A program made the position numbers and the translations under genes. The notes below the pieces were generated by a model. It was not told where the DNA came from and did no database searches. It saw only the letters and a program-made list of their open reading frames with translations. Shown here in pieces: positions 11,012 to 59,311 of a stretch of 64,000 bases of DNA (the stretch's first letter is position 1; every line of letters begins with the position of its first letter). This stretch comes from Campylobacterales bacterium (GTDB taxonomy: Bacteria; Campylobacterota; Campylobacteria; Campylobacterales; Sulfurimonadaceae). The stretch covers positions 1-64,000 of the forward strand of contig JAFGVE010000037.1 in the NCBI GenBank assembly GCA_016938175.1. The letters run 5' to 3'.

Positions 11012-13056
11012 AGTCTCTCCACAAATGAAGCAAGAATTTCACGTTTTGTCCCAGCAAAATTAATTTGTAGTTTAAACTCCCTTCCTGATTTGCTCACACC
11101 TGTAACACGCCCAGTTCCAAAAACCTTGTGACGTACCAAATCACCCTTTTTAAAAGCTGTATTTTTCTCTACAATCAAAGAGCCTTCACAAAGTCCAGCC
11201 TCATTAAAAAATCTACTCTTCTGTAAATCACTTCTACGCCCTTTATAGAAACGACTACCAGCATGAGAAAGGGTTAGTGTATCTTTAGCACGAGTCATAG
11301 AAACATATCCAAGCCTACGTTCTTCTTCAAGATCGCTACCATCACCGACAAGAGGTAAAAATCCCTCTTCCATACCTATAATAAACACATGCTCAAACTC
11401 AAGTCCTTTACTTGCATGAATACTCATCATATAAATAGATTCACCCTCAACTTGGTCCTGCTCACTCTGTAGGGTCAACTCATTTAAAAATTCATCCAGA
11501 GTTGCTTCAGGGGATTTTTTGACAAAGTCTCTAAAAAGACCGTAAAACTCATCCATATTCAAGATACGTTCATCCTCATCCTGAACCCCTTTATATATCT
11601 CTTTTAGAGAAAAACGCTCTTCTAAAATATCTATAAACTCATACGTTGACTCTTTTGCAAGCTTTGCAACATCTTCAATATTTGTTACAAACTCTTTGAG
11701 TGTAGCAGCATTCTTCTTCTTTACCAGTTCAACGAGTGTATCCATACTTACATTTTTAATGTATTCAAAAATAGACATTCCATCTGCATGTGCAGCCAAC
11801 TCTATCTTATCTACACTCGCTTTACCAAGTCCGCGTTTCGGCTTATTGACTATACGTTTAAATGAAAAATCATCATGATTGTTTGTAATAACACGGATAT
11901 ATGAAATAAGGTCTTTAATCTCTGCACGATCATAAAAACGTAACCCACCGACAAGCTTATAAGCAATACGTGCACGATTTAAACCCTCTTCTATAGAACG
12001 GGAGAGAACATTCACACGATATAAAATAGCTATCTCTTTTGCTCTGACACCTGAGTCTAAAAGCTTCTGTACCTTTATAGCTATCTTACGTGCTTCTTCA
12101 TTTTCATCATTTGAATTTAAGACGGTAACATCGTCACCGCCACCACAAGTAGAAATAAGTTTTTTACCTAAACGTGAGCGATTATGCTCAATAAGAGCAT
12201 TCGCAACATTTAAAATAGGAGACTTTGAACGGTAATTCTCTTCAAGCTTAAAAACCTTTGCCCCAATAAAATCTTCATCAAACTCCATAATATTTCTAAT
12301 ATGTGCTCCACGCCATCCATAAATACTCTGGTCATCATCCCCAACTACACAGATGTTTTTATGTGTCAAACAGAGTTTTTGAATAAGCTTGAGTTGTAAC
12401 TCATTTGTATCTTGATACTCATCTATCATAATGTACTGGTAACGCTGTGAAGTTGACTCTGCCAACTCTTTGTTCTCATTTAAGAGTTTATATGTCAATG
12501 CAAGTAAATCATCAAAATCAACAAGATTATTTTCTAAAAGATATGCCTCATATTCTCTATAAACTTCTGCTATCTGTTTATAGTTAAAAAGTTCTGCTTG
12601 TTTATAGGCATCATCAGGAGTCATTAAAGAGTTTTTATAACGAGAAATTTCACTTGCTATAAGCGGGGTAGGAATATCAGCGTTTATTTTTTTAATAATA
12701 CGTTTTTTATCATCGGTATCTATTACAACAAAGTTATTAGCACGTCCTAATAGATGAATGTTAAACTTTAAAAACAGAAGTCCAAACTTATGAAAAGTAC
12801 ATAACAGTGGTGGGTACGCAACATTCTCAATCATTGCTAAAGAGCGCTCTTTCATCTCTTTTGCAGCTTTGTTTGTAAATGTCAGAGTGAGAGTATTAGA
12901 AGCTGGAATACCTAAAACTTCTATTAGGTATGCTAAACGAGATACAATTGTAGTCGTTTTTCCACTCCCAGCACCCGCTAAAATGAGTACTGGTCCCTCG
13001 GTTTGCTTCACAGCAGCTGACTGAGAATCGTTAAGTCTGTTAAAAATTTTTTCCAT
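11008..13056 (-). CDS. UvrD/PcrA/Rep-family 3'-5' DNA helicase (start probably MEKIFNRLN)
   Basis: GAGSGKTTTIVSRLAYL, DEYQDTNELQ, VVGDDDQSIYGWRGA and SIHASKGLEFEHVFI. Confidence 0.95.
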   Translation of the reverse strand: MEKIFNRLNDSQSAAVKQTEGPVLILAGAGSGKTTTIVSRLAYLIEVLGIPASNTLTLTFTNKAAKEMKERSLAMIENVAYPPLLCTFHKFGLLFLKFNIHLLGRANNFVVIDTDDKKRIIKKINADIPTPLIASEISRYKNSLMTPDDAYKQAELFNYKQIAEVYREYEAYLLENNLVDFDDLLALTYKLLNENKELAESTSQRYQYIMIDEYQDTNELQLKLIQKLCLTHKNICVVGDDDQSIYGWRGAHIRNIMEFDEDFIGAKVFKLEENYRSKSPILNVANALIEHNRSRLGKKLISTCGGGDDVTVLNSNDENEEARKIAIKVQKLLDSGVRAKEIAILYRVNVLSRSIEEGLNRARIAYKLVGGLRFYDRAEIKDLISYIRVITNNHDDFSFKRIVNKPKRGLGKASVDKIELAAHADGMSIFEYIKNVSMDTLVELVKKKNAATLKEFVTNIEDVAKLAKESTYEFIDILEERFSLKEIYKGVQDEDERILNMDEFYGLFRDFVKKSPEATLDEFLNELTLQSEQDQVEGESIYMMSIHASKGLEFEHVFIIGMEEGFLPLVGDGSDLEEERRLGYVSMTRAKDTLTLSHAGSRFYKGRRSDLQKSRFFNEAGLCEGSLIVEKNTAFKKGDLVRHKVFGTGRVTGVSKSGREFKLQINFAGTKREILASFVERL

Positions 13057-39379: not shown

Positions 39380-40888
39380 TTAGTATCCGCTATTATAAAC
39401 AAATGCCGTAACAAACTCAAGTAGTGGGTTTACAGCTAAAAAAGCAAATATAGTTCCCACAGCTGCAAAACCTATAATAGATTTTAATGCTAAAGTTGCG
39501 TTTGTTACATATACATGTCCATCATTACCAACTACAGGCTCTTTCATAAACATATAAACAATAAGTTTTACATAATAATAACCAGCAATTGCAGAGTTAA
39601 GAGCCATAATAAGTGCAAGCATTGTATATCCACTTGTTACTGCTGAGCTGATCATATAAAGTTTACCCCAGAAAAGTGCAAACGGTGGGATACCTGCAAG
39701 GCTTAACATAAAAAGCGCCATAATAATAGCCGCCATAGGCGAAGTCTTAATCATACCTGCAAATTTATCAAAACTATGGTCAGTTCTTTGGTATGCAGGA
39801 AGATGCTTTTGACGTGAAATCCAAAGCATCGTAAATGAACCAAGGTTTGTAAAACTAAATAGAATCCAGTACATAAAAAGTGCACTATTTGACTGCGTAG
39901 TACCAATAAGAATAGCAGCCATTACAAAACCAGCATGTGAAATAGAAGAGTATGCTAACATACGCTTAACATCACTCTGTACTAAAGCCCACATATTTGC
40001 AGCTGTCATCGTAACCACAACAAAAACATAAAGTACTACTTCAAGCCAAACAATACCACTATGCACTAAAAACTCAAAGATTCTCATTGCAACGATAAAA
40101 GCTGCAATTTTTGGAACAATTGACATATAACCTGCCATTGCAGCACTTGAGCCTTCATATACATCTGGAGTCCATGTATGAAATGGAACTATAGAGAGTT
40201 TGAATGCAAATGATGCAAGCATAAATGCAACACCTACTAAAACGTAAGCTATATCTGCATAACCGTTCGCTTCTAAAACTGCTGCAATTTGGTTAATCTC
40301 AACAGAACCTGTAAGTGCATAAAACACCATCGCACCAAAAGAGTAAAAACCAGCTGCAAGTGCACCCATTGTAAAGTATTTCACAGCTGCTTCAAAAGAC
40401 TTGTCGCGATTGTGCATTGCAATAAGCGTATATAATGCTAAAGATGCTGTCTCTAATCCAACGAAGATTAAAATGAGGTTATCTGAAGCAACCATAAATT
40501 GAAAACCACTAATCATAAACAAGAAGAGTGCAAAAAACTCTGGATATGAGAACTCATGGAAACGCTTATGAGTAAGTGCTAATGGGATAAAAAGCATAGA
40601 AACACCCACAATAATAAATTGTGAAAGAATTGCTAAACCATCAATAAGCATTACATCAAACACACCCATAACAGTGCCATCTTGAACAAAGACACCTGAT
40701 GCATCCATAATAGCGATAAAGTCTATAAATAAGAAAAGTAAACTTATACCTACATAGAGAGTCTTGTCTAGATTACTTTTAAAAAGGTCAATCACAAGAA
40801 TTAAAAGTGCACCTATAATTGGAATAAGCATAGGTGCTAGAGTCATCAGGTTTAATGACTCTAAAGAAACGTTCACTGGCGCTAACAT
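39380..40888 (-). CDS. nuoN: NADH-quinone oxidoreductase subunit N
   Basis: Antiporter-like subunit; SIVPFHTWTPDVYEGSSAAMAGYMS; last gene of the nuo operon. Confidence 0.95.
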   Translation of the reverse strand: MLAPVNVSLESLNLMTLAPMLIPIIGALLILVIDLFKSNLDKTLYVGISLLFLFIDFIAIMDASGVFVQDGTVMGVFDVMLIDGLAILSQFIIVGVSMLFIPLALTHKRFHEFSYPEFFALFLFMISGFQFMVASDNLILIFVGLETASLALYTLIAMHNRDKSFEAAVKYFTMGALAAGFYSFGAMVFYALTGSVEINQIAAVLEANGYADIAYVLVGVAFMLASFAFKLSIVPFHTWTPDVYEGSSAAMAGYMSIVPKIAAFIVAMRIFEFLVHSGIVWLEVVLYVFVVVTMTAANMWALVQSDVKRMLAYSSISHAGFVMAAILIGTTQSNSALFMYWILFSFTNLGSFTMLWISRQKHLPAYQRTDHSFDKFAGMIKTSPMAAIIMALFMLSLAGIPPFALFWGKLYMISSAVTSGYTMLALIMALNSAIAGYYYVKLIVYMFMKEPVVGNDGHVYVTNATLALKSIIGFAAVGTIFAFLAVNPLLEFVTAFVYNSGY

Positions 40889-42441
40889 TAATGTGCCTCC
40901 TTCATCGCTGTTCTAGTAATCTCTATACCTTGCGTAAGGTCTGGAATTCTAGTTTTTGCTTCCTCTGTAGTTGCTTTATTGTGCATTAACTGTACAACTG
41001 CTTCAACTGAGTTGTTAATTGGCTCTAAAACAGGTTTTGGATATACACCTAACCAAATAGTAATAATCGTAAGTGGAATCAGAGCCACTAATTCACGTTT
41101 GTTTACATCTGGAAGGTTTTTATTTTCCTCAATTGTCACATCACCAAAAAACATTTTTTTGTATGCTGCAAGCATATAAATTGCACCTACAACGATTGCT
41201 ACACCTGCTAAAAGTGTAAGAATATGAGACTGTTCATAGAATCCTAATAGTGATAAGAATTCACCAACAAAGTTAATTGTCAGTGGCATACCGACCGAAG
41301 CCATAAGCATTACACCAAAGATAGTCGCATATCGAGGCATAACGTGCGCTAAACCACCAAACTGATCCATCATCTTCGTATGACGTCTATCATAAATCAC
41401 ACCAACAAGTAAGAAGAGTGCACCTGAAACTACACCATGGGCAATCATTAAAAAGATTGATCCAGAGATACCCTCAACGTTTAATGCAAAAGTACCAAGT
41501 ACAATTACACCCATGTGTGAGATTGAAGAGTATGCAACAACTTGCTTCACATCTTTTTGTGCATACGCAACCATTGCAGTATAGATAATCATGATAATAG
41601 CTATAATAGCTATTGGGTACATGAAAAATACTGAAGCATCAGGGAAAAGTGGAAGTGAAAAACGAATGAACGCATATGTACCCATTTTAAGTAAGATTGC
41701 TGCAAGTATTACAGAACCTATTGTTGGTGCTTGCCCGTGTGCATATGGCAACCATGTATGAAATGGAAACATTGGAACTTTAATGGCAAAACCAAGGAAA
41801 AATGCAGCAAATAACCACAACTGAAAACTCTCAGGTAAAATAAGTCTATACCAATCTAAAAGTGCGAAACTCCATACACCTGTTGCCTGATAGAAAAAAT
41901 ACGCCATAAATAGCATACCCACAAGCATTACTAGTGAGCCCATAAATGTATAAAGGAAAAACTTCACAGATGCATATACACGTAATGGTCCACCCCATGC
42001 ACCAATGATATAAAGCATTGGTACAAGTGAAAGTTCCCAGAAAACATAAAATACAATAGCATCAAGTGCAGCAAATACACCAACCATAGTCATCTGCAGA
42101 AACAGAAGTGTAATAATCATATTTTTTTCATTTGGCGTCTCAGTAAGAGAAGCAATACCAATCATAGTAAAAAATGATGCGAGAATAATGATAAAAAGAG
42201 AAATTCCATCAACTCCTAAAATATAACTAATTCCAAATGATGGGATAAGTGCCATCTGTTCCATGAACTGCATACCAGATACATTTGAGTCAAATGCAAA
42301 CCATAACCATAAAGAGAGAATAAACTCAATAAACGCAACACTTATACCATAAGCACGCATACTCTCTTTTTGAATCATAAATCCAAACACACCTGCAAGT
42401 GCTGGAAAGAAAATTAGTATTGACAGTATATGATCAAACAT
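40888..42441 (-). CDS. nuoM: NADH-quinone oxidoreductase subunit M
   Basis: GVDGISLFIIILASFFT, FYVFWELSLVPMLYIIGAWGG, VPMFPFHTWLPYAHGQAPT. Confidence 0.96.
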   Translation of the reverse strand: MFDHILSILIFFPALAGVFGFMIQKESMRAYGISVAFIEFILSLWLWFAFDSNVSGMQFMEQMALIPSFGISYILGVDGISLFIIILASFFTMIGIASLTETPNEKNMIITLLFLQMTMVGVFAALDAIVFYVFWELSLVPMLYIIGAWGGPLRVYASVKFFLYTFMGSLVMLVGMLFMAYFFYQATGVWSFALLDWYRLILPESFQLWLFAAFFLGFAIKVPMFPFHTWLPYAHGQAPTIGSVILAAILLKMGTYAFIRFSLPLFPDASVFFMYPIAIIAIIMIIYTAMVAYAQKDVKQVVAYSSISHMGVIVLGTFALNVEGISGSIFLMIAHGVVSGALFLLVGVIYDRRHTKMMDQFGGLAHVMPRYATIFGVMLMASVGMPLTINFVGEFLSLLGFYEQSHILTLLAGVAIVVGAIYMLAAYKKMFFGDVTIEENKNLPDVNKRELVALIPLTIITIWLGVYPKPVLEPINNSVEAVVQLMHNKATTEEAKTRIPDLTQGIEITRTAMKEAH

Positions 42442-42444
42442 AAA

Positions 42445-44367
42445 TTAAACTCCTAAACCTGATAAGACTGCTAAAATCTCATCAAAATATCTTACTGCTA
42501 GTCCAAAAACTACAGCTAATGAAAGCAGTCCAACAGTACCTGCTACCATCCATTTAAGCATTGTAGAGAGGTTTCCACTCTGCATATCTCTTGTTTTTTC
42601 ACCAGTAGAATAGATAATACCAGCAATTCCATCTACAGTTGCATCAACAATTTTTAAATCTACTTGTTTCCAAAACACATCAGAAATTTCTCTATATGGT
42701 TTTACAAGATACTCTTCATATGCATATGGAATATAGTATTGGTTTTTCAAAATTTTGTATGCAATAGAATTTTCCATTTTTGATGTACCGTCTGGAACTT
42801 TTACAGAACTATTCGCATATTTTTTATAAGCAAACGCGATAGCTGCTATGACAAAAAGCTGTGTTCCAATAACCATAATCCAAAAAGTCACTGGATGATG
42901 AATGTGATACTCTAACTCTGGTAAAACATTTGTAACCATCTCAAAATAAGATATTTTGAATGAACCTGCGATTATTGCAAGTAATAATAGTGGACTCATA
43001 GCAACAAGCATAAACTTATACGCTTCATGAGGGTGAATACCAAAGAGTTTATATCTCTCTTCACCATGGAAGATAAGCGCAATAAGTCTAAATGAGTAAA
43101 ACGCAGTAAGACCAGCAGTTATTAAAAGAACTGAATAGATAATATAGTGATGTTCAACAAATGCAACCTCTAAGATTAAATCTTTTGAGAAGAAACCAGC
43201 AAGTGGGTAAATACCTGCAAGTGCAACCGAAGCAAGTGTCATCATAATAAATGTCCACTTCATTGTCTTCTTAAGTCCACCCATTTTAAATGGATCTAGT
43301 TCATCGTGCATAGCGTGCATAACATTACCTGCACCAAGGAAAAGAAGTGCTTTAAAGAAAGCGTGCGCCATAAGGTGGAAAAGTGCCACCCAGTATGCAC
43401 CTAAACCTGCTGCAACGAACATATACCCTAACTGAGAGAGTGTTGAGTATGCAATAATTCTTTTCATATCACGATTTACAAGTGCCATAGAAGCTGCAAA
43501 CATTGCAACAAAAGCACCAAGACTTGCTATGAATAGTCCAACATGAGGAATTAAATCATATAACTCATTTGAACGCACTACTAAATAAACACCCGCTGTA
43601 ACCATTGTCGCTGCGTGAATAAGTGCAGAGACTGGGGTAGGACCTTCCATCGCATCAGCAAGCCATGTATGCAGTGGGAACTGCGCTGATTTACCCATAG
43701 CACCTATGAAAAGGAAGATACCTATCCAAGTTAAAGTAGCAGGATCGAGTGATGGCATTGCAGCAAAAGCACCTTCGTACTGAAGAGTTCCTGTATTCCA
43801 ATACACTAAGAAAAGACCAATTAACATTCCAAGGTCAGCAATACGGTTCATAATAAACGCTTCATTCGCTGCCCATGTTGCAATCTCTTTGTGAAACCAA
43901 AATCCAATTAGACCCCAAGAACAAAGACCAACACCTTCCCAACCAATGAAAAGACCTGCAAAATTATCGCTCATTACAAGAACCATCATAGAGAAAACGA
44001 ATGCTGAAAGCCAAGCAAAAAATCTGTTAAAGCCTTTATCGTGATCCATGTAGCCAATTGAATAAACATGAACTATAGTAGAGACCAGTGTAACAACCAT
44101 CATCATTGTCACAGAAACCTGATCAACAACAAATCCAAATGGAATATATAAGTCTCCTGTTGCCATCCAAGTCATTAATTCAACATGAACAACTTCACCG
44201 CCACCTATAATGTGCGTTAAAAGAATTGAACTACTCACAAAAGCTGCAAAAATCAGTAAACTTGCAACTATACCTACAAACTGTTTTTTTGGCGTAGCAG
44301 TAAAGAGTGCTGAAAACAGAGAACTCACTAGAGGAGCAAAAAGTGCAATGTATAAATATTTTTCCAT
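42445..44367 (-). CDS. nuoL: NADH-quinone oxidoreductase subunit L
   Basis: GWEGVGLCSWGLIGFWF, AQFPLHTWLADAMEGPTPVSALIHAATMVTAG. Confidence 0.97.
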   Translation of the reverse strand: MEKYLYIALFAPLVSSLFSALFTATPKKQFVGIVASLLIFAAFVSSSILLTHIIGGGEVVHVELMTWMATGDLYIPFGFVVDQVSVTMMMVVTLVSTIVHVYSIGYMDHDKGFNRFFAWLSAFVFSMMVLVMSDNFAGLFIGWEGVGLCSWGLIGFWFHKEIATWAANEAFIMNRIADLGMLIGLFLVYWNTGTLQYEGAFAAMPSLDPATLTWIGIFLFIGAMGKSAQFPLHTWLADAMEGPTPVSALIHAATMVTAGVYLVVRSNELYDLIPHVGLFIASLGAFVAMFAASMALVNRDMKRIIAYSTLSQLGYMFVAAGLGAYWVALFHLMAHAFFKALLFLGAGNVMHAMHDELDPFKMGGLKKTMKWTFIMMTLASVALAGIYPLAGFFSKDLILEVAFVEHHYIIYSVLLITAGLTAFYSFRLIALIFHGEERYKLFGIHPHEAYKFMLVAMSPLLLLAIIAGSFKISYFEMVTNVLPELEYHIHHPVTFWIMVIGTQLFVIAAIAFAYKKYANSSVKVPDGTSKMENSIAYKILKNQYYIPYAYEEYLVKPYREISDVFWKQVDLKIVDATVDGIAGIIYSTGEKTRDMQSGNLSTMLKWMVAGTVGLLSLAVVFGLAVRYFDEILAVLSGLGV

Positions 44368-44371
44368 ATTT

Positions 44372-44680
44372 TTATCCTCTCATACTTGACATAGTATCCA
44401 GATCAACATTGCCATGACGTTTAAACCATACAATTAAAAGACCTAGCCCAACTGCAACTTCAGAAGCAGCAATTGCAATCACAAAAAATGCAAACATCTG
44501 TCCAGTTAAGTCGTTATAATAATGTGAAATAGCCGCAAATGCGATATTTACAGAGTTTAAAAGAATCTCTGTTGCAAAAAACAGTAACAGAAGATTTTTT
44601 CTACGCATAATACCTACTAAACCAATAGCAAATAAAATTGTAGAAAGAATAAGATAGTGATTTAAACCTATTTCCATCAT
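44372..44680 (-). CDS. nuoK: NADH-quinone oxidoreductase subunit K
   Basis: NHYLILSTILFAIGLVGIMRRKNLLLLFFATEILLNSVNIAF. Confidence 0.96.
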   Translation of the reverse strand: MMEIGLNHYLILSTILFAIGLVGIMRRKNLLLLFFATEILLNSVNIAFAAISHYYNDLTGQMFAFFVIAIAASEVAVGLGLLIVWFKRHGNVDLDTMSSMRG

Positions 44681-45252
44681 GAAAGCACCTTTTTGTCTTG
44701 TTCTTTTTTAATCTCATCAATTTCAGCTTGATTCATTAAAGTAAGAGAGAGATCCATTTTTTTACCAGCAAGCACAATTCCTGCAATCATTGCAACAAGA
44801 AGCATTACAGCTGCAACTTCAAAAGGAATCAAATACTTAGTAAAAAGAACCATTCCAACCTCTTGTGTATTACCTGCACCTTCAATACTTGGATAAAATG
44901 CAGTCATATTCGTAGAAATCATCGGTGCTGCAAAAATAAGTACAACTAAGACAGCCGATAAAATTGCAAGACCTGAGATAATATATTTATTCCCCTGTTT
45001 TTCCCTTACTGAACGTGTTGAATCAAAGAACATCATTCCAAAGGCATAAATAGCCATAACAGCTCCAGTATAAACGATAATTTGTACCGCACCTAAAAAA
45101 TCAGCCCCTAGGATAAAGAAAAATGCTGATATAAAAATCATTCCTGCTGCCAATGCTGTAAGTGCATAAAGCGCCTGTGATGTTGTTACAGTTATGTAAA
45201 ACATCGATATTGTTAAAAAGGCAAACAGGTAAAATGCTACTGCTTCAAACAT
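44677..45252 (-). CDS. nuoJ: NADH-quinone oxidoreductase subunit J
   Basis: GADFLGAVQIIVYTGAVMAIYAFGMMFFD. Confidence 0.95.
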   Translation of the reverse strand: MFEAVAFYLFAFLTISMFYITVTTSQALYALTALAAGMIFISAFFFILGADFLGAVQIIVYTGAVMAIYAFGMMFFDSTRSVREKQGNKYIISGLAILSAVLVVLIFAAPMISTNMTAFYPSIEGAGNTQEVGMVLFTKYLIPFEVAAVMLLVAMIAGIVLAGKKMDLSLTLMNQAEIDEIKKEQDKKVLS

Positions 45253-45264
45253 AATTCAATCTCC

Positions 45265-45882
45265 TTAATACGCTAGAGGTGTTTTCTTAACACGCTCGTC
45301 TTCATGTGGTGTAACAGCACCAAAACCTTCAAACTCTCTTTGAGCTTTTGCTTTCATTGTATCAATTGGAGTAAGCATATACTCATAATCAACAAAATGT
45401 TCTCTTTGCTCTGAAGCTTGCTCATAATCACCACCGTGTGTAATCGCAAGTTCTGGACATACTTCTGCACAATATCCACAAAAAATACAGCGTCCCAAGT
45501 TAATTGTATACTCTGTTACTTCTTTACGAGAGTTTTCATCAATTTTAGTATCCATGCGAATACAATTTGAAATACAAATTTTTTCACAAAGCCCACATCC
45601 AATACATCTTTCTGCATCTGATTCCCAAAGGCGCTTCATCTCATGAACTGCACGATATCTTGGTCCTATTGGCATCTTTTCAGCAGGATACTGTACTGTG
45701 TGAATGTCAAACTTAACCATTTCACGGAAAACAACCCATAGACCAACAAAAAGCTCGCCTCTAAATGTTCTTTTCATTACACGTTTAAATTTACCCCAAC
45801 CATCAGTAGGATAATCTTCAATGTCTACTAAGTAGTAATCACTCTCAGTAACATTTCTATTGTTAAATGCTTCCATATTCAT
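45265..45882 (-). CDS. nuoI: NADH-quinone oxidoreductase subunit I (likely start MNMEAF; ORF track begins at 45894)
   Basis: ERCIGCGLCEKICISNCIRM and CIFCGYCAEVCPELAITHG 4Fe-4S motifs. Confidence 0.95.
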   Translation of the reverse strand: MNMEAFNNRNVTESDYYLVDIEDYPTDGWGKFKRVMKRTFRGELFVGLWVVFREMVKFDIHTVQYPAEKMPIGPRYRAVHEMKRLWESDAERCIGCGLCEKICISNCIRMDTKIDENSRKEVTEYTINLGRCIFCGYCAEVCPELAITHGGDYEQASEQREHFVDYEYMLTPIDTMKAKAQREFEGFGAVTPHEDERVKKTPLAY

Positions 45883-45894
45883 CCTGTCTCCCAA

Positions 45895-46884
45895 TTAAAA
45901 CATCATCACAAAACCAGTGATAACTACGTTAATCACTGCTATTGGCATAAGTACTTTCCAACATAACCACATAAGTTGGTCAGGTCTAACATCTGGCCAT
46001 GCAGCTCTCGTCCATAAGAAGAAAAAGAAGAAAAATGCCATTTTGCCAAGTAGTGCAAGAGCACCTAAGAAACTACCATCACCATAACCACCTAAGAAAA
46101 CAAGCGGAATAACAAACGAAATAAAGAACATATTCGCATACTCACCGATAAAGAAAAGTCCCCATCTCATACCAGAATACTCTGTACCAAAACCATCAAT
46201 AATTTCGTGATCATTTGCAATTAAGTGAAACGGAGTACGACCAGTTTCAGCAAAAGCAGCAATCCAAAAAAGGATAAAGGCTACTGGTTGTGACCATACT
46301 ATCCAGTCACCAATTCCACCTGCTTGATACTCATTAAAATCAATTAAAGAAAGTGAACCAACCATCATAATTGGTGCTAAAATTGCAAGTCCTGTTACAA
46401 CTTCATAAGAGATAAATACTGCAGCGGCACGAGCTGCTGAGATAAGTGAAAACTTATTTGCAGAAGCCATACCACCAAGCAGTGGACCATACAAACCGAT
46501 CGCCATAACACCCATTACATATAAAATACCTATATTTACATCAGCAACTATTGGATGAACTGTATATCCAAAAATTGTAAAAGAAGGTAAAAAAGGAATT
46601 GCTGCTGCTGCCATAAATGCAGTGGCAGCTGTAATAACCGGTGCTAGTTTAAAAATTGTTGCTACTACGCCAGTTGGGATAATATCCTCTTTTGTAAAAA
46701 GTTTAATACCGTCTGCAGCAATCTGTAAAAGTCCGTAAGGACCAACATTCATAGGTCCAAGACGACGTTGCATAAAAGCAAGAATCTTACGTTCAAAGTA
46801 TGTTCCAAAACCTGCTAAAGCAGAAAAAACAAGTAGAATAACAACGACTTTGATTACCGTTTCTACTAAATATGCTGTATCCAT
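45895..46884 (-). CDS. nuoH: NADH-quinone oxidoreductase subunit H
   Basis: GTYFERKILAFMQRRLGPMNVGPYGLLQIAADGIKL; AETGRTPFHLIANDHEIIDGFGTEYSGMRWGLFFIGEYANM. Confidence 0.97.
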   Translation of the reverse strand: MDTAYLVETVIKVVVILLVFSALAGFGTYFERKILAFMQRRLGPMNVGPYGLLQIAADGIKLFTKEDIIPTGVVATIFKLAPVITAATAFMAAAAIPFLPSFTIFGYTVHPIVADVNIGILYVMGVMAIGLYGPLLGGMASANKFSLISAARAAAVFISYEVVTGLAILAPIMMVGSLSLIDFNEYQAGGIGDWIVWSQPVAFILFWIAAFAETGRTPFHLIANDHEIIDGFGTEYSGMRWGLFFIGEYANMFFISFVIPLVFLGGYGDGSFLGALALLGKMAFFFFFFLWTRAAWPDVRPDQLMWLCWKVLMPIAVINVVITGFVMMF

Positions 46885-46887
46885 AAA

Positions 46888-49377
46888 TTACACCCTTTCA
46901 ACTGAAGCTGTAGCAAATCTATAACCATTTGTTAAAGCCTCTGAATTTAGATTTGCATCAAATGTAGGAAGTACTACAATATTTCCTGCAATTTTATTAT
47001 CACTAACGATATTTGCAGTTACTTCTCCATTTGCTGTTTTTACTTTAACACTATCTCCAGCATTAAAGTCAGAACTCGCAAGTGACTCCTCGCTCATATA
47101 TATGCCGCTCTCTTCATCAAGATATGCTGTTTTATATGTAAATGGCGTAAATTGCCTTACTGGATTTGCAAGATAGATAACTGTACCATCTAAAACTGCA
47201 CTTTCATCAATTTTTGTAACACTTTCGTCTGAACTTACCGTAACATTTTGTGCTTCAAGTTCATATCCACGAACTTCTTCACCTGCATTTGTATAATAAT
47301 CAGGAAGGTCATCAAAACGTACAGATTTAAAACCTGCTTTTGCACCGAGTTGTGGCGTGTAATCTATTGTATACTCAGCACTTAACCCTAGTTCATTTGC
47401 AATATCATTGAGTGTATAACCACCATAACTAAGAGCAGCATTTGTTGGATTTACACGTTTATTAATTGAAGTAAGAGTTCCCTCTTGTTGATTAATTGCT
47501 GGCATATCTAAGTCACCATCACCTAAAGCTGAGAGAGTAAAATCAGCTTTAGTGTTATATCCAACTGTATAGCTTCCAGCTTCAGCAGAAAGTTCATTAA
47601 TAAGCGCTACACCAAGAGTATTTGTAAGTGTAGGAATCATTACTACTTTAAACTCTGAGTACTTCTCAAACAGTGCCACAAGACGAGCTAAATTTCTAGC
47701 ATTTGGATGTTTATACATGTCTGGACCCACAATCAGTGAAAATGAGTCTTTTTTCTTCATGATTTTGTCAAAATCTTCTGCAAAACTATCAGAAGCTCCA
47801 AGCATCTCTAGAAGTCTATTTGTATCAACTTCTACCTCTTTGCTTACAGTCTTACTAACCATTTTTGACTTTTCTACTTCTACTTCTCTCTCTTCGCCTG
47901 TATCTGGATCCATCTCTTTTTCAAGAGTAATTTCAACTACTTTTTCTTTTACAGTCTCTTCAACTGTAATAGTTTCAATAGTATGGAATCCTGCTAAATA
48001 TTCAACAATCTCATTTGGCAGTTTAGATTTATCTGCAAACAAATCTAATAATAAATACATAACAGTCTCTTCTTGGAGTGGCTGATGATTCATTGTAATG
48101 AGATTTTTACTCATTTCGCTTACAACAGGGTCAGCTACTGGGTGAAAATAAATTCCTCCACCTTTATTTACTGTGAGTGAATTATTCAATGCATATCTTG
48201 CATTTGGATTGTCACTTTTAATTGCAGTACCTACACTCACAATAAAATTAGTGTTTGCAACATCTTTTAAGTTTGTAGAGTAAAGTGAAGATCCACTTAT
48301 TTCAGAATAATCTTTTAGAAATGTTTGAAATGAGCGTGCATCTTCATTTACAAGTTTGTATCCAAATTTCTCTCTTAACTTATCTAAAATTAGAGCCTCT
48401 TCATTCGTAATTGTTGATGTAAATTTAATTGTATCGGCTTTTTTAAACGCTTCAACAGCTTTAGCGAAGGCAACTTCATCTTTTGTAACATCTGCATTTT
48501 CATAATCAAAACCATAACGCCCAGCACCACAAAGTGATACATAGTTCCACTCATTTGTTACACGATAGATTTTGTCGTTTGGATTATCAATACTCGTATG
48601 TTTTATATCATAAGATATTTGACAACCTGCCGAACAGTGTCCACATGTAGCTGGAACTTTTGAAAGTTCCCATGCATTTGATTTATACATAAACTCAGTG
48701 TCTACAAGAGCACCAACTGGACATACAGCAGCACATTCACCACAAGAAGTACAATCAAGAACATCTGTACCGTTTGTAAGACCAATAACGGACTTATTAA
48801 GCTTATTCCACATTGCATATGCATCTTTTGGCATCTCTTCTTTAAATACCGCATCAATTGAATCAGACCCACGAGCAATTGTTTTTAACGAGTTATCTCC
48901 AATCATATCTTTACATGCAGTAACACAACGTTCACAAACAATACAAAGACCCGGATCGTAATGTAGGTGGCCCCAATCATGAGAACTTCTATCTACATCT
49001 CTAATAGAATAACTTTGTGAATCAACTTCCATCTCTAATGTATAGTTTTGAAGTTCACACTCACCAGACTGATCACAAACACCACACTGTAATGGATGGT
49101 TTACATCATAAACTTCCATAATTGCGCGACGCTCTTTCTCAATTGTTTCCGTAGTCGTTACAATGCTCATCCCATCTTTTGCTTTTGCATTACAAGCATA
49201 AACCTGTTTACCGTCTGCTTCAACTAAACAGATACGGCATGCAAGAGTTGGACTACATCTTGTAAGGTAACAGATTGCAGGTATGAATATATCATTCGCA
49301 CGTGCAGCGTTGAGTATAAACTCACCCTCTTCTGTAACTATATCTTTCCCGTCTATATTTATATTTACTTTACTCAT
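46888..49377 (-). CDS. nuoG: NADH-quinone oxidoreductase subunit G with a charged lineage-specific insertion
   Basis: N-terminal ferredoxin domain (YLTRCSPTLACRICLVEADGK), HPLQCGVCDQSGECELQN, N7-like CGHCSAGC. Confidence 0.93.
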   Translation of the reverse strand: MSKVNINIDGKDIVTEEGEFILNAARANDIFIPAICYLTRCSPTLACRICLVEADGKQVYACNAKAKDGMSIVTTTETIEKERRAIMEVYDVNHPLQCGVCDQSGECELQNYTLEMEVDSQSYSIRDVDRSSHDWGHLHYDPGLCIVCERCVTACKDMIGDNSLKTIARGSDSIDAVFKEEMPKDAYAMWNKLNKSVIGLTNGTDVLDCTSCGECAAVCPVGALVDTEFMYKSNAWELSKVPATCGHCSAGCQISYDIKHTSIDNPNDKIYRVTNEWNYVSLCGAGRYGFDYENADVTKDEVAFAKAVEAFKKADTIKFTSTITNEEALILDKLREKFGYKLVNEDARSFQTFLKDYSEISGSSLYSTNLKDVANTNFIVSVGTAIKSDNPNARYALNNSLTVNKGGGIYFHPVADPVVSEMSKNLITMNHQPLQEETVMYLLLDLFADKSKLPNEIVEYLAGFHTIETITVEETVKEKVVEITLEKEMDPDTGEEREVEVEKSKMVSKTVSKEVEVDTNRLLEMLGASDSFAEDFDKIMKKKDSFSLIVGPDMYKHPNARNLARLVALFEKYSEFKVVMIPTLTNTLGVALINELSAEAGSYTVGYNTKADFTLSALGDGDLDMPAINQQEGTLTSINKRVNPTNAALSYGGYTLNDIANELGLSAEYTIDYTPQLGAKAGFKSVRFDDLPDYYTNAGEEVRGYELEAQNVTVSSDESVTKIDESAVLDGTVIYLANPVRQFTPFTYKTAYLDEESGIYMSEESLASSDFNAGDSVKVKTANGEVTANIVSDNKIAGNIVVLPTFDANLNSEALTNGYRFATASVERV

Positions 49378-50913
49378 TTAGCTTACTCTCACTATTTTAG
49401 ATTTTAAAAATTTATAAATACCACCATCTGTATTCATATCAAATGTAGGGTTTAGAGCTATTGTCCCTTTGAGTGTTTCATCAAGTTCAAAAACTCTACG
49501 TATTACTGATTTCCCAACATTAATATCTACAGTATCGCCATTTGCTACTTTTGCAGCAAGTGCAAATTGTGCAGAACCTCTTAAGCTTCTATTGTTCTGC
49601 AGTGCAGACACCTTGTTTGTACAAATATTAAACTGACCTTCTGGATTGGAAGCATAAATTATGGTCCCGTTATACTCCGGTAAATCATCAACATCTTCTA
49701 ATTCTAAAGAGCTATCCATATTCGTTACACTTTGAAGAGTCAATTCTTCAGTACTCTTTGTACTCTCTACACTTAAACCTAGAGCCAAGGCAATATCTCT
49801 GAGTGAGTACCCCTCATAGTTATATATTGCATTAAGTTTTACAACTTTATTTTCAACTGTAATAACAGTTCCATTGAGCTGTGTCAGTGCAGGGAGTGAA
49901 AAATCAGCTTCTTTACAACAAGAAGAAAGGAAAAATCCACCTTGTGTGTTGTACCCAATAACATCATCTTCACCTTCATCGGTATCTAAGGTTACAATCT
50001 TTGAAACACCCAAAGTATTAATCTGAGACGCTTCTACAAAAAGTGTAATTTTTTTATATTGTGCAATCTTAGCGATAAGCTTTGCAATATTTATCGCTCT
50101 TGGATGTGCAAAAAGATCACTTCCTAGCACAAGAACAATTTTATTTGCATTTGATAAGAGATTACTCATATCATTAAGCTCATCATCACCAACATTTGAC
50201 TCAGCTTCCAAATAACCTGTATCAAGTTCTTCAAAATATTCTCTATCAGCCTCACTCAGCTCACTATTTTGTAACAGTTCACTTGCTAAAAGTGCAACTA
50301 CACCCTCTTCCGTTCCTGCTTCATATTTCATAAATTGTGCAAAAACAGAACTCATAACTGCATCTTCTATAGGATGTGCATAAACAGCTTTCGCATCATA
50401 ATTCTCTACTGCATTACTTATTGCAAATGCAAGTGCGGGGTTTTCATTACGAATACGACCGCCAAGTACAATAATTCCATCAGCATTTGCAACATCATCC
50501 AATGACGCTCTTTTGTCATACACTCCAAGCTGCTCATTAAAAACGCTAAAAACTCTTGCCTCTTCATTGTAAAGCTTTACGCCATATTGTTCTTTAATTT
50601 GTGCCAAAATGAAAAGTTCTTCATTTGTAATCATAGAATTAAAACGAATTGCTGTAGCATTTTTGAATACATCAACTAGGTTTTCTAAAAAACTATCTGA
50701 CTGTTTACTTGTATTAGCAAATGCAAAACCATGTAAACCAGCCTCACAACTAGCTGCATATGCACGCAGGTTCCTTACCTCAAATGATGAAACAGAAGAA
50801 TCTGACAATATGCTTTTATACTCTAAAGGACACCCTGCAGAACAGTGCACACAAGTAGAGAGTATGATTTCTTCGCTCACTGCACTTGCTCCAAGAATTT
50901 CCTTTGTATTCAC
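49378..50913 (-). CDS. NuoG-paralogous molybdopterin-oxidoreductase-like protein, at the nuoF position
   Basis: Collinear with the C-terminal part of the adjacent NuoG (TAIRFNSMITNEELFILAQIKEQYGVKLYNEEARVF vs DTIKFTSTITNEEALILDKLREKFGYKLVNEDARSF); N-terminal CVHCSAGC-x27-C. Confidence 0.85.
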   Translation of the reverse strand: MNTKEILGASAVSEEIILSTCVHCSAGCPLEYKSILSDSSVSSFEVRNLRAYAASCEAGLHGFAFANTSKQSDSFLENLVDVFKNATAIRFNSMITNEELFILAQIKEQYGVKLYNEEARVFSVFNEQLGVYDKRASLDDVANADGIIVLGGRIRNENPALAFAISNAVENYDAKAVYAHPIEDAVMSSVFAQFMKYEAGTEEGVVALLASELLQNSELSEADREYFEELDTGYLEAESNVGDDELNDMSNLLSNANKIVLVLGSDLFAHPRAINIAKLIAKIAQYKKITLFVEASQINTLGVSKIVTLDTDEGEDDVIGYNTQGGFFLSSCCKEADFSLPALTQLNGTVITVENKVVKLNAIYNYEGYSLRDIALALGLSVESTKSTEELTLQSVTNMDSSLELEDVDDLPEYNGTIIYASNPEGQFNICTNKVSALQNNRSLRGSAQFALAAKVANGDTVDINVGKSVIRRVFELDETLKGTIALNPTFDMNTDGGIYKFLKSKIVRVS

Positions 50914-50922
50914 ACTATAGTC

Positions 50923-51147
50923 CTAGTCTTTCTTTGCAACGACAGTCCAATCAACTTCGTTAAACTTTAAAGAGTTGAGGAGTTCATATCCCGCTTCTCT
51001 TACAATATCTGCACTTTGTTGTACAGAAGAAAAATCTCCGATCTCAAATAAAAAGATGGCAACTTCACCAGCTTTATGTGTTGCTAAAAGCTCTTTCATA
51101 CGTGGCTCAAAGTTCTCTTTAAGGTGTCTTAAATCATATCTTTTCAT
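50923..51147 (-). CDS. Small NuoE-position protein (HP1264-like), 74 aa
   Basis: VAIFLFEIGDFSSVQQSADIVREAGYELLNSLKFNEVDWTVV; between nuoD and the NuoG paralogue; no NuoE 2Fe-2S cysteines. Confidence 0.82.
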   Translation of the reverse strand: MKRYDLRHLKENFEPRMKELLATHKAGEVAIFLFEIGDFSSVQQSADIVREAGYELLNSLKFNEVDWTVVAKKD

Positions 51148-52388
51148 TATCTATCTACCTCACCAAATACAATATTCGTTGTTCCTATAATAGAAACAAC
51201 ATCCGGAATATAGTGCCCAGGAAGAAGATCAGTTAAGATACCGGTATGCCAAAACGACGGTGCACGAAGTTTCAGTCTATATGGATATGGTCCACCTTGA
51301 GAGTTAATATAGTATCCAAGCTCACCTTTTGGTGATTCTGTTGCGATATATACCTCACCTACTGGCGGTCTCATACCTTGAGTTACAAGAACAAAGTGCT
51401 GCATAAGTGAATAGTTCTGCGTCATAATATCTAGTTTAGGAGCAGAAATATACTTTGGTGCGTGTGCCATAAGCTCTGTTTGATTATTTTTAACAGTCTC
51501 TTCGTACATATCTATTGTTTGATAAAGAATCTTTGCTGACTCTCTCATCTCTTCCATATAGATACGATAACGAGCAAAATTATCACCTTTATCAGAGTAA
51601 GGAACATTGAACTCTACTTCATCATAAAGCTCATACGGTTCTTCTTTACGAATATCCCAAGCTACTCCTGAAGCTCTAAGCATTGGACCTGTACATCCCC
51701 AAGAGAGTGCCATTTCAGTTGAAATTGTTCCAACTTCTTCCATTCTCATAAGCCAAATACGGTTAGAGTCTAAAAGGTCCTCATAGTCTTTGATGTTTTG
51801 CGGTAACTTATCTAAAAAAGTTCTCAGTTGTGCAATAAAATCATTTTGAATATCAAGTGGAACACCACCAATACGGATTGCTGCATGGGTTAAACGTGCT
51901 CCACAGTACCCTTCAATAATATCCATTAAATATTCTCTTTCACGGAAAGCAAAAAGGAATATAGTCATAGCCCCAATATCAAGAGCAGTTGTTGCTAACC
52001 AGAAAAGGTGAGACATTAAACGGTTAATCTCTAAAAGCATCATACGAATAACTTTCGCACGACGAGGAACTTCTAAACCAATTAATTTTTCGACTGCCAA
52101 AGCAAAACCATAGTTATTTGACGATGATGCAATGTAATCCATACGGTCAGTTGTTGGCATAAATTCATTGTAAATCATGTTTTCAGCCATCTTCTCCATA
52201 CCACGGTGTAGATAACCAACATCTGGATGGGCTTTTACAATTTGCTCTTGTTGCATATGAAGCATAAGACGAAGTTGTCCGTGTGCTGATGGGTGTTGAG
52301 GACCAAAGTTAAGAATAACTTCACTGTCATTTCTATCGAAAGTGATGTTCTCAAAAAATGGTGTTAATCTATTTTTTACCTGTGCCAT
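51147..52388 (-). CDS. nuoD: NADH-quinone oxidoreductase subunit D
   Basis: [24 protein letters not shown]...[15 protein letters not shown]. Confidence 0.97.
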
Positions 52389-52399
52389 ATCTTTTCCAC

Positions 52400-53206
52400 C
52401 TATCTTTGAGGATCATCAACAATTTTTGATGACTCTTTATCGAATTTTTTAATTAAGAACACACCGCCCTCTTCTTGATAAGGGTTAGGATTTTTTGGTT
52501 CATCACCTGTGATTTTAGTTCCTTTTGGAACCTCATATCCAAGACGTGCAAAGCGCTCAGAGTCATATCTATCAACTCTTGACGTATCACGAATTTCAGG
52601 ACCGATAATATCACGTGCTTCTTTACCATAAATTTTATCAACTTCATACCATGCAGCAAACTCATCACCCTCTAAAGGATATGTTTTAAGAAGTGGATGC
52701 CCCTGCCAATCATACGGCATTAAAATACGTTTCATGAATGGATGGTTGTTTGCCACAATTCCAAACATATCATACATTTCACGCTCAGACCAATCAGCAG
52801 AACGGAAAAGTTTTTCAACTGAATCTACAGCCTGTCCATTTTCAATAAAATACTTTACGCGTACACGTTTACGTTTCGTCATTGAAAGCATCTGATAAAA
52901 AATTTCAAAAGTATTATCTTTTGCAAGCCAATCAATAGCAGACATTTCTGTAAGTTGCGTATATTTTAATTCATCACGCATAAACTCTAAAACACCATAA
53001 ATATCTTTTGCATTGATATATACAACAAGTTGTCCAACTTGAAGATATGACTCTTTTACCTCAAATTTTGCACTTATGGCTGCCAAATCTGCTGCAAAAA
53101 CTTCATCAGTCGATACATCTTCTTTTGGAACCTGAGGTGCTACATAATATCTATCCGTGTAATATGACTTTGCCTGAACATTGTCTTTTGGTATATACGG
53201 TCTCAT
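52400..53206 (-). CDS. nuoC: NADH-quinone oxidoreductase subunit C
   Basis: [46 protein letters not shown]. Confidence 0.95.
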
Positions 53207-53715
53207 TACATTAACCTTTTAGCTTTTTGTGCATTACCAGCTTTGTTTGCACGAATCTTCTTTTGTAGTAACATTACACCGTACTGCAATGTTTCTGGAC
53301 GTGGTGCACACCCTGGAAGATAAAGGTCAACTGGAATAATTCTATCACAACCCTGCACGGTTGAATACGTGTTGAACATTCCACCAGTATTTGCACATGA
53401 ACCCATTGATATAACCCAACGTGGTTCTGTCATCTGATCATACAAACGCTTAATAAACTCAGCATGCTTTTTAGTTAATGTTCCTGCAACTATCATTACA
53501 TCTGCTTGACGTGGTGACGCACGGAAAATTGTTCCATAACGGTCAAAGTCAAATCTTGATGCTCCAGAAGCCATCATCTCGATTCCACAACAAGCAAGAC
53601 CGTAAGTAAGTGCCCAAATTGAATTTGAACGACCCCAGTTAACGATTTTATCTATACTTGTCAATGCAACCGGAAGACCTCCGTCTTGCGTATAGTTTAC
53701 TTTATGTTGTGCCAT
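53206..53715 (-). CDS. nuoB: NADH-quinone oxidoreductase subunit B (likely start [11 protein letters not shown] track begins at 53736)
   Basis: [28 protein letters not shown]...[37 protein letters not shown]. Confidence 0.97.
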
Positions 53716-54086
53716 TCTAGCGCTCCTTTCTTCCAAGCATATACGAATCCAATTGCTAAGAGAAGAATGAACATTAACATCTCAGCAAACCCGAACCAGC
53801 CCAATAGTTTAAAATCAACTGCCCATGGAAACATAAAAACTATCTCAACATCAAAAAGTAAGAAAAGAAGTGCGAACAGATAAAACTGTGGCGAAATTCT
53901 ATTTGGTTGTTTTGTAACTTCCGGTCCACACTCATAGACTGAAAGCTTTATTTTTTCTGTATCTTTTGCAGCTAAAGCACGACTCGCAAGACGAGCGATA
54001 ACAGTGGTAGCTATAAAAGCACCGAAAGTTATAACAAAGAGTACAAATACCCCAAAATAAGGATTTGAAGTCACTATATGCTCCAT
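53697..54086 (-). CDS. nuoA: NADH-quinone oxidoreductase subunit A
   Basis: [43 protein letters not shown]. Confidence 0.96.
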
Positions 54087-54295: not shown

Positions 54296-56032
54296 CTATT
54301 TTGTTAAGAAACCTACAGATTTCTCACTATCAAAATTGGCATCTTTTTCTCTATTGATTTCATCAATAAAATCTTGCAGATAAAATACAGGTTCATCTCG
54401 CACAGCAACTTTATATGCTGTGTTTTTTACTATAAGATTTATCTGTCCTCCGGTAAGAGAATAACTTGCAAGCTCTTTTATACTAAACGCTTTCTCATAA
54501 GAAGCACTTTTTGGAAGCATTTTTCCCCAAAGAATTTCACGCTGTGCCAAATCTGGTTTTTTAAATTCTATTTTATAGTCAAAGCGACGTGAAAATGCTT
54601 TATCAATATTTTCCAAAAGGTTTGTTGTTGCAATCAACATTCCCCTAAACTTTTCAATTTGCTCTAAAAAGATATTTTGCATTTGATTATGCATCTGATC
54701 TGAACCAGTAATATTTCCACTGCTTCTAGCACCCAAAAACTGGTCTGCTTCATTAAGAAGTAAGATTGGTTCTGTCTTTGTTTTAGCACTTAAGTCATAA
54801 AATGTATCAAATATTTTACGAACATTTTTTTCACTTTCACCAACATACATAGATAAAATTTTTGAACAATCAAAAGCAAGCACCTGACGTTTTAAAGATT
54901 TAGCGAGAGAATAGGCAGTCATTGTTTTTCCTGTCCCAGCAGCACCATAAAATATAATGCGTGCATCTATGCCACTTTTTTTATCTTTTATACCCCATTC
55001 AACAAGACGTGATGAAACTTTTTTATCAACCTGTTTCATTAAATTTTCGAGTGTCTCCTGTGTATGTTTATTGAGTACAACATCATCCAATGAAGTATCA
55101 CTCTCTATAAGCTCAAATATATCCTGTTCTTCAATTAGCGCGCCTAACTTTAAGCGTGTCACTTTTTTGCTTTTATGAGGGTGAATAATACTTTGTAATA
55201 CCTCATCAACAATATAAAAAGCCCGAGATATTCCACCAAAAGGATTTAACATCTCTTCATAATCAATAATGCCATTACTTAAAAGATTTGACCCTTCTTC
55301 CAGTAAAGAACGGTTCTTAATACGCTCGTACTCATCCAAAGAAATTAAGTCTATTAATGCATTCATTTCACGTAAAGAGGCATCACTAGAGCTATACTCT
55401 TCTCTGAGTAAAGCTATAAAAATAACTTGTTCATAGTTACTCATCTTTTTTTGTTTAAAAAATTTATCTAGGACAAGGTTCTCCGATGTCTGTTCAACTC
55501 TCTCTTGTATACGTTTTTCAAGATGTTTTAACTTGTTCTGTACTCTGTCAATTCCTAAAGAGTGCTCATGAACATTCTGACGAATGAGACTCATTTTTTG
55601 ATAAAGCTCTATTCTAAAAAACTGATCTTGTAAATATTCTAAATGATCAGCGTAAGGTTTTATCTCAGGTAAATCAGATTCTAAAGTGCCTTCTTGAAGG
55701 AGTCTTAAAAAAGATGGTGTTAACCCAACGGCAGTATTCAATAACTCTAATGGAGTTACTTCTGAAATTTTCATCGGGGTAAAACTTTGTTGATGTAGCC
55801 AACCAAGTTCTAAAAGATTTTTCAACTCTTTTAAGTGGTCTAAATACTCATAGTTATCACTTGGATAGAGGTCATGAAGCATATCTAAGACAAGAATATC
55901 ATCTTCGCCTTGCATATATTTTTTCGTAATGTATTGAAGCATCATAGCTTCAACTACATCACATTTGAGATGTATAAATATCTCAGAATTCTCAAGCTCA
56001 GTTGTTGAGAGAAAGTTTACTAAAGTTTTCAA
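54296..56032 (-). CDS. AAA+ ATPase with long N-terminal helical region
   Basis: IIFYGAAGTGKTMTAYSLAKSL Walker A; EPILLLNEADQFLGAR Walker B; SRRFDYKIEFKKPD. Confidence 0.88.
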   Translation of the reverse strand: MKTLVNFLSTTELENSEIFIHLKCDVVEAMMLQYITKKYMQGEDDILVLDMLHDLYPSDNYEYLDHLKELKNLLELGWLHQQSFTPMKISEVTPLELLNTAVGLTPSFLRLLQEGTLESDLPEIKPYADHLEYLQDQFFRIELYQKMSLIRQNVHEHSLGIDRVQNKLKHLEKRIQERVEQTSENLVLDKFFKQKKMSNYEQVIFIALLREEYSSSDASLREMNALIDLISLDEYERIKNRSLLEEGSNLLSNGIIDYEEMLNPFGGISRAFYIVDEVLQSIIHPHKSKKVTRLKLGALIEEQDIFELIESDTSLDDVVLNKHTQETLENLMKQVDKKVSSRLVEWGIKDKKSGIDARIIFYGAAGTGKTMTAYSLAKSLKRQVLAFDCSKILSMYVGESEKNVRKIFDTFYDLSAKTKTEPILLLNEADQFLGARSSGNITGSDQMHNQMQNIFLEQIEKFRGMLIATTNLLENIDKAFSRRFDYKIEFKKPDLAQREILWGKMLPKSASYEKAFSIKELASYSLTGGQINLIVKNTAYKVAVRDEPVFYLQDFIDEINREKDANFDSEKSVGFLTK

Positions 56033-58297: not shown

Positions 58298-59311
58298 TTA
58301 CTTAAGTTTTGAAGCTATACTTTTTACAGCATCACTTGCATGATTAAACGCGAGTGCAATACTTCCTTGGTCAGTTACAACATCACCAATTGTATAAAGA
58401 CCTTCTACGTTTGTTTCAAAAGTCTCTGGGTTATACACAGGCACATCCCACTCACCAGTTTGAACACCAGAGTTAACTAGGATATCTTTTGGAGTTGTTC
58501 CACCAAGTGCATATACAGCTCTGTCATACTCACCAGTTGAACCATCAGTAAAGTTTACTTGTATTTTACCTGTAGGAGATACTTCTAAACTCTCAACATC
58601 AACACCCATTTTATTACAAATTTTACCATTGTCTAGGTATTTATAACACATTTCAGTGTTAATTGGGTTCATTCTTTTGATTTCAGCTTGGCGATAGTTA
58701 AGTGTAACAACACAATCTTCCATGCCTTCCATTTCAACTAAACCATAAGCATACTCACCAGCAGTATCACCACCACCAACTACCATTACGTGCTCACCAT
58801 TTTGTACTTTTGAAAGATTAAAGTTTAATACTTCTTTTAACTCTTTAGGGAATTTATATTTAGGCTTGTTAGGTTTACCCATACGACCTACTGAAAGAAT
58901 TACATTTTTTGCTTTCATAGATTCTAGAGCTTCGGCTACACCATCTTGACCATAAACAATAGTAAATAGACCATCTTCACCTTTTTCAACTCTCATAATT
59001 TCATGATTGTATTCAAATCTCTCAAGTACGCCTGCATCAGATAATTTTTTATCCATTTGCTCAATGTATTCTTCTTTTGAACACTCTTCAAAAGTTACAT
59101 TACCTGTAAATTCAAACTTGATTCCCATCCAGTCTTTATCAACTCTTTTACCTTTTTTGTAAAACTTGTGAATCATATCATTATGGTGTGGAGCTTTATC
59201 GATAACAACAATATTCTCAATACCAGCTAATTTTGCCTCTATTGCAGAAGCCATACCACCAGGTCCAGCACCAATTATCGCGATGTCTACTATTTTATTG
59301 TCTTGAATCAT
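58298..59311 (-). CDS. FAD/NAD(P)H oxidoreductase, FqrB (HP1164/Cj0559)-like, formerly called TrxR2
   Basis: [77 protein letters not shown]; no CxxC of the TrxB type. Confidence 0.8.
   Translation of the reverse strand: MIQDNKIVDIAIIGAGPGGMASAIEAKLAGIENIVVIDKAPHHNDMIHKFYKKGKRVDKDWMGIKFEFTGNVTFEECSKEEYIEQMDKKLSDAGVLERFEYNHEIMRVEKGEDGLFTIVYGQDGVAEALESMKAKNVILSVGRMGKPNKPKYKFPKELKEVLNFNLSKVQNGEHVMVVGGGDTAGEYAYGLVEMEGMEDCVVTLNYRQAEIKRMNPINTEMCYKYLDNGKICNKMGVDVESLEVSPTGKIQVNFTDGSTGEYDRAVYALGGTTPKDILVNSGVQTGEWDVPVYNPETFETNVEGLYTIGDVVTDQGSIALAFNHASDAVKSIASKLK

Follow-up and report, generated by a model that had tools for sequence, protein, structure and literature searches.

A truncated NuoG paralog in a Sulfurimonas complex I operon as the probable remnant of an ancient second NuoG

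The nuo operon of the Sulfurimonas genome analyzed here carries, between nuoX and nuoG, a 511-aa gene that is, with good confidence, the C-terminal remnant of an ancient full-length second NuoG (NuoG1). Its N-terminus and a neighboring gene encoding a NuoF/GltD-type chimera are both gone, and the body that is left probably serves as a scaffold in a complex that would take its electrons from ferredoxin or flavodoxin. No description of a tandem NuoG in Sulfurimonas or Campylobacter was found in the literature searched, which left out the Sulfurimonas denitrificans genome paper.

The truncated NuoG and its operon

The operon lies on the minus strand of the window (the whole 64,000-nt stretch of DNA analyzed), in the order nuoA, B, C, D, nuoX, 511-aa gene, nuoG, H, I, J, K, L, M, N. 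Its features are as follows.

53697..54086, minus strand: nuoA (ORF and operon order)
53206..53736, minus strand: nuoB (ORF and operon order)
52400..53206, minus strand: nuoC (ORF and operon order)
51147..52388, minus strand: nuoD (ORF and operon order)
50923..51147, minus strand: nuoX, 74 aa, NADH-UOR_E (PF16514, E 2.1e-37; PDB 2lxr, HP1264, E 2.5e-21)
50914..50922, minus strand: deletion junction of 9 nt, from the nuoX stop to the GTG start of the 511-aa gene (comparison with relatives)
49378..50913, minus strand: nuoG1 remnant at the nuoY position, an N-terminally truncated second NuoG of 511 aa with a GTG start (ORF, NuoG identity, tree, AF2)
50746..50853, minus strand: predicted N7-type cysteine set C21, C24, C28, C56 of the 511-aa protein (motif search; ligand-column conservation)
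46888..49377, minus strand: nuoG (NuoG2), 829 aa, with N1b, N5, two CxxCxxCxxxC 4Fe-4S motifs and an N7-type site (NF006305, 1153 bits against a cut-off of 591; Pfam; motifs)
45895..46884, minus strand: nuoH (ORF and operon order)
45265..45894, minus strand: nuoI (ORF and operon order)
39380..45252, minus strand: nuoJKLMN membrane-arm genes, ORFs 44677-45252, 44372-44680, 42445-44367, 40888-42441 and 39380-40888 (sequence and operon order)

The operon is flanked by a gene for a 578-aa AAA ATPase (54296-56032), and near it is encoded a 337-aa thioredoxin-reductase-like flavoprotein (58298-59311, minus strand) that by eye is FqrB-like, of the flavodoxin:NADP reductase type. NuoG2 is matched by the Pfam domains Fer2_4, NADH-G_4Fe-4S_3 and Fer4. 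The two full CxxCxxCxxxC motifs of this Campylobacterota NuoG are as in HoxU and FeFe hydrogenases, whereas canonical NuoG has one (N4).

The first-pass annotation had described the 511-aa protein as a NuoG paralog corresponding to the C-terminal two-thirds of its neighbor and lacking the N-terminal ferredoxin-like 2Fe-2S domain, and both points are borne out. In BLASTP, residues 17-510 align with residues 241-829 of NuoG2 (202 bits, 28% identity, E 8e-61). Pfam gives a weak Molybdopterin match only, with no Fer2, N5 or 4Fe-4S N-terminus. The curated NuoG profiles score 338 bits (NF006305, cut-off 591) and 35 bits (TIGR01973, cut-off 470), and the NuoG equivalog cut-off is thus not reached. 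A phmmer search of the 511-aa protein against PDB gave no useful match. The AF2 model (pLDDT 86.7, pTM 0.88) has E. coli NuoG as its first PDB match, followed by formate dehydrogenases and Nqo3, and the C-terminal molybdopterin-like fold is present.

Motif search also recovers the cysteine spacings given in that annotation: the 511-aa protein has C21-x2-C24-x3-C28-x27-C56, and NuoG2 has C-x2-C-x3-C-x30-C at residue 245. The four ligand positions of the predicted N7-type 4Fe-4S site are Cys in 80/80 full-length Sulfurimonadaceae orthologs, and the site is therefore inherited and not a chance motif. The last gap, however, ranges from 23 to 31 across the family, so that x27 alone is not diagnostic. 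The N7-type assignment stands, but it rests on homology and not on the spacing by which it was originally made.

Age of the NuoG pair

In a phylogenetic tree of 62 rows, one branch splits all 23 NuoG1 from all 36 NuoG2 in every bootstrap tree examined; the outgroup branches are long and the root is uncertain. The 511-aa protein falls inside the NuoG1 group, and its identification as a non-complex-I molybdopterin enzyme is rejected by both tree and BLAST. As the single-branch split extends across the sampled Campylobacterales, the pair predates the sampled families, and both copies are normally full-length. The tree thus rejects the local, intra-operon duplication suggested in the first-pass annotation.

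Full-length NuoG1 and a NuoF/GltD chimera in relatives

The window genome is a Sulfurimonas. In most Sulfurimonas species the ortholog of the 511-aa gene encodes about 750 aa and is a full-length NuoG1 with N1b, N5, two 4Fe-4S motifs and the N7 site, a form also found in other Campylobacterales families. At the same place in the operon, relatives carry a NuoG1 of 729-792 aa preceded, between nuoX and nuoG1, by a gene for a chimera of about 680 aa, which joins the C-terminal 4Fe-4S domain of NuoF and a GltD-like FAD/NAD(P)H reductase in one protein (domain search: NADH_4Fe-4S of NuoF, Fer4_20, Pyr_redox_2/GltD). One example is the following.

L067:8530-10572, minus strand: chimera gene; most Sulfurimonas, and several further families of Campylobacterales, have its equivalent in their nuo operon

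By its domains, the chimera is a candidate for an NAD(P)H input module of another kind than NuoEF. It is present in 98/120 Sulfurimonas genomes and in 23/121 genomes of the phylum sample. In the window genome (a draft, 93.6% complete, in 44 contigs), there is no match to the chimera at E 1e-60 and none to canonical NuoF at E 0.001; the latter absence rules out rescue by a canonical NuoF. From the nuoX stop to the first N7 Cys codon there are 2,721-2,727 nt in the five relatives measured and 69 nt in the window. The region removed at the window junction corresponds, in close relatives, to the chimera (about 2.04 kb) plus about 0.6 kb encoding the NuoG1 N-terminus.

In G047 (L084:7566-9818 and 9815-12118), NuoG1 has neither the usual 4Fe-4S motifs nor most of the N7 cysteines (CSHTPLAPSLYYE...SLT); this N7-less NuoG1 adjoins an intact chimera, and NuoG2 is unusually short (767 aa). 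In one Sulfurimonas subgroup (L069:4946-7135, L070, L071 and L072), NuoG1 is divergent, 34-40% identical to the window protein, while the other Nuo proteins are 71-95% identical. The L069 NuoG1 pairs in the tree with that of L081, from another family, which suggests transfer or rapid divergence.

Repeated co-loss of the chimera and the NuoG1 N-terminus

Among readable loci, the chimera and an intact NuoG1 N-terminus occur together in 94 and are both missing in 26, with no true case of a chimera-less locus that has the N-terminus; these are counts of loci, some genomes enter twice, and several genomes are drafts. L094 is mislabeled in this table, its "Y" being NuoG2. At L134:3295-6027, from a draft assembly of Sulfurimonas sp. 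BM502, both genes contain in-frame stops: a TAG breaks the reading frame of the chimera, and the N-terminal part of NuoG1 is interrupted as well, reflecting either early co-decay or sequencing error. The chimera is absent from the window genome, G129, G147, G156 and G231, and NuoG1 is shortened in all of them. G161 and G193 are uninformative on gene loss, as their contigs end there.

The state of the chimera requires 6 changes on the Sulfurimonas operon tree (concatenated NuoBCDGHI) and 7 at the order level (NuoBCDHI tree). A single clade of the window, G129 and the G147 group is rejected by the AU test, and with it a single shared loss across these Sulfurimonas. The test does not reject a grouping of the four members of the G147 clade (p 0.13), nor one of the window with G129 (p 0.067), and with these groupings allowed for, co-loss of the chimera and the NuoG1 N-terminus appears to have occurred at least 4-5 times in Sulfurimonas.

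Parsimony alone fits either loss or gain of the chimera; a gene fossil and a series of intermediates favor loss. The 617-aa form of G156, where the contig starts inside the gene, keeps the 2Fe-2S and N7 sites and has its middle clusters gone. Forms of 511, 502 and 495 aa, in the window, G231 and G147 respectively, carry N7 only, and shorter forms are found in G129 (312 aa) and G126 (271 aa). In G130, a 244-nt spacer holds a stop-bearing fossil of the gene (a pseudogene), and in G123 the gene is gone, leaving a 9-nt gap. The Sulfurimonas stages (750, 617, 500, 312, 271 and 0 aa) show which part can go first. Outside this genus, nuoX directly overlaps nuoG in G048 of family f2 (L109:7929-8168), where NuoY seems to have been lost as well, independently of the losses in Sulfurimonas.

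Selection on the remnant and alternative explanations

The 511-aa gene has a rate of evolution about 1.4 times that of its full-length relatives, with a NuoY/NuoG2 divergence ratio of 1.68 for the window and 1.18 for full-length pairs. Full-length pairs have NG86 dN/dS values of 0.05-0.13; the truncated pair L062-L063 comes to 0.20, and comparisons with the window gene, in which dS is saturated, give 0.33-0.43. By these ratios, constraint on the gene is relaxed yet still purifying. The accelerated evolution, together with the fossil in the related G130 and the gene-less G123, would also fit a decaying leftover of little or no function, heading for loss. Such decay is rather unlikely, however, given a reading frame intact over 511 codons, dN/dS well under 1 and the retention of all four N7 cysteines. 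Additionally, G147 and G231 also keep about 500 aa intact, and worn-down orthologs persist across Campylobacter- and Helicobacter-type genomes. That a fast-evolving protein should have kept all its N7 cysteines hints at a lasting importance of the cluster, in line with a scaffold and also with a redox role.

The first-pass annotation had proposed an intra-operon duplication that adds a subunit for electron entry or with a structural role. The tandem position and the conserved N7-type cysteines agree with a recent duplication adding an electron-entry (redox) subunit by way of a second N7 site, but such an addition is very improbable because the pair is old and order-wide, and because the clusters of the electron path (N1b, N5 and 4Fe-4S) are the very part lost in the window, as is the NuoF/GltD-type gene. 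N7 is moreover off-pathway in known complex I, and some close relatives lose even the remainder of the gene and keep the operon. With the putative NAD(P)H input module lost, the 511-aa protein is most likely a structural remnant and not an added electron-entry subunit. An assembly or frame artifact, with a real N-terminus and chimera missing from the draft, has next to no probability. The genome is indeed fragmented, but the nuoX stop and the GTG start lie 9 nt apart on a single contig, the chimera has no match anywhere in the genome at E 1e-60, and the same architecture is seen in G147 and G231, a single-cell genome and another metagenome-assembled genome.

A model for module loss and the present electron donor

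The remnant can be placed in an ancestral operon of the form nuoABCD - nuoX - [NuoF N3-domain/GltD chimera] - nuoG1 - nuoG2 - nuoHIJKLMN. From the domains present, it is most likely that an NAD(P)H-oxidizing input module was made up of the chimera together with the N-terminus of NuoG1, with the NuoF-type domain of the chimera docking on the NuoG1 N-terminus, as NuoF does on NuoG, and feeding in electrons from NAD(P)H. The lineage of the window has undergone a deletion of, in net terms, about 2.65 kb, which took away the chimera and about 200 residues of NuoG1, including the 2Fe-2S, N5 and two 4Fe-4S motifs, and a new GTG start now comes directly after nuoX. Once the chimera was gone, the docking domain of NuoG1 would have been useless, and it may have been deleted along with it. 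What remains is a body of molybdopterin fold, catalytically dead, that carries the N7-type 4Fe-4S site. It probably still sits against NuoG, close to where electrons enter, and acts there as a scaffold or cap; the data are compatible with such a structural role.

Electrons would now enter from ferredoxin or flavodoxin, via NuoX (with FMN) and the clusters of NuoG itself. The window genome has matches to the 2-oxoacid:acceptor oxidoreductase family that are below the curated cut-off of that family, and it has a long-chain flavodoxin. Long-chain flavodoxin occurs in G000 and G231, as well as in several genomes with the chimera, and not in G129, G126, G130 or G123. Thus, it fails to track loss of the chimera, and a gain of flavodoxin as the cause of that loss is unsupported.

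Relationship to the NuoF replacement of Campylobacter and Helicobacter

In the literature, nuoXY replaces nuoEF in the epsilon complex I and is linked to flavodoxin or ferredoxin (PMC6682613, PMC4178425), and according to a report cited in PMC4178425, complex I depends on Cj1574c to receive electrons from flavodoxin. In hhalign comparisons, NuoY of the Campylobacter, Helicobacter and Sulfurospirillum types aligns with the NuoG1 C-terminus (E 6e-34, 2e-33 and 3e-47, respectively), and far more weakly with NuoG2 (7e-6, 3e-14 and 4e-15). In the Helicobacter-type group, nuoX is identical to HP1264 at 73/74 positions, so the Y gene is by position HP1265; the identity of the Campylobacter- and Helicobacter-type groups rests on this match and on gene order. 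An AF2 model of the HP1265-type protein (pLDDT 79.7) has Thermus Nqo3 as its first PDB match. On these profile matches, the 511-aa gene is orthologous to the Cj1574c/HP1265-type subunit, and what replaces NuoF in Campylobacter and Helicobacter looks like the same protein as the NuoG1 remnant, further worn down. The N7 cysteines are lost in all short NuoY forms sampled.

In three genomes of genus g11, family f7 (L098:6773-7543, L099:6107-6877 and L100:6911-7669), an orphan NuoY of about 255 aa is encoded with no other nuo gene there, adjoining the same 578-aa AAA ATPase as flanks the window operon; these genomes have a canonical NuoF elsewhere. The orphan apparently survives from an operon that once stood at this site and has since gone.

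More broadly, it is likely, if slightly less so than the reading of the window gene itself, that the ancestor of Campylobacterales had a complex I with two serial NuoGs, in which a GltD-type NAD(P)H reductase took the place of NuoEF. This module would have been lost repeatedly, always together with the cluster domain of NuoG1, leaving NuoY as the last fossil of the second NuoG, with Sulfurimonas displaying the stepwise erosion. Such a history offers an origin for the epsilon NuoF replacement, annotated as NuoF or hypothetical and looking like the tail of a second NuoG, and outlines an ancestral complex I that combined two copies of NuoG with an input module of the GltD type. As a repeated event, the co-loss would also be a natural experiment on a change of electron donor in complex I.

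Comparison with known systems

The 511-aa protein shares the C-terminal molybdopterin-like fold and the N7-type site with NuoG/Nqo3 (TIGR01973, NF006305; PDB 7nz1_G, 3i9v_3), but it is without the 2Fe-2S, N5 and 4Fe-4S N-terminus and belongs to a separate paralog group. HP1264 of H. pylori (PDB 2lxr), called "NuoE" and reported to bind FMN (PMC6269979), is orthologous to the 74-aa nuoX product of the window, that is, to the neighbor of the 511-aa gene and not to the 511-aa protein.

A model for the ancestral chimera plus NuoG1 module is StnC of the Sporomusa-type transhydrogenase StnABC, in which a NuoG-like domain, its FdhF-type part catalytically dead, is joined to a GltD-like NADPH/FAD domain, and in which the GltD and NuoG-like domains can pass electrons from NADPH (PMC10482914). 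However, StnC is one soluble fused polypeptide outside a proton-pumping complex I, and in the window the GltD part is wholly lost.

The closest counterpart is NuoY (Cj1574c/HP1265). Like the 511-aa gene, it sits between nuoX and nuoG, in the position of nuoEF, and the whole of this short protein has profile homology to the NuoG1 C-terminus. Faster evolution is also common to both, HP1265 having been reported among divergent H. pylori genes, without positive selection (PMC3561388). Compared with the short NuoY forms (about 230-340 aa), however, the window protein has about twice the length and still carries the N7-type cysteines.
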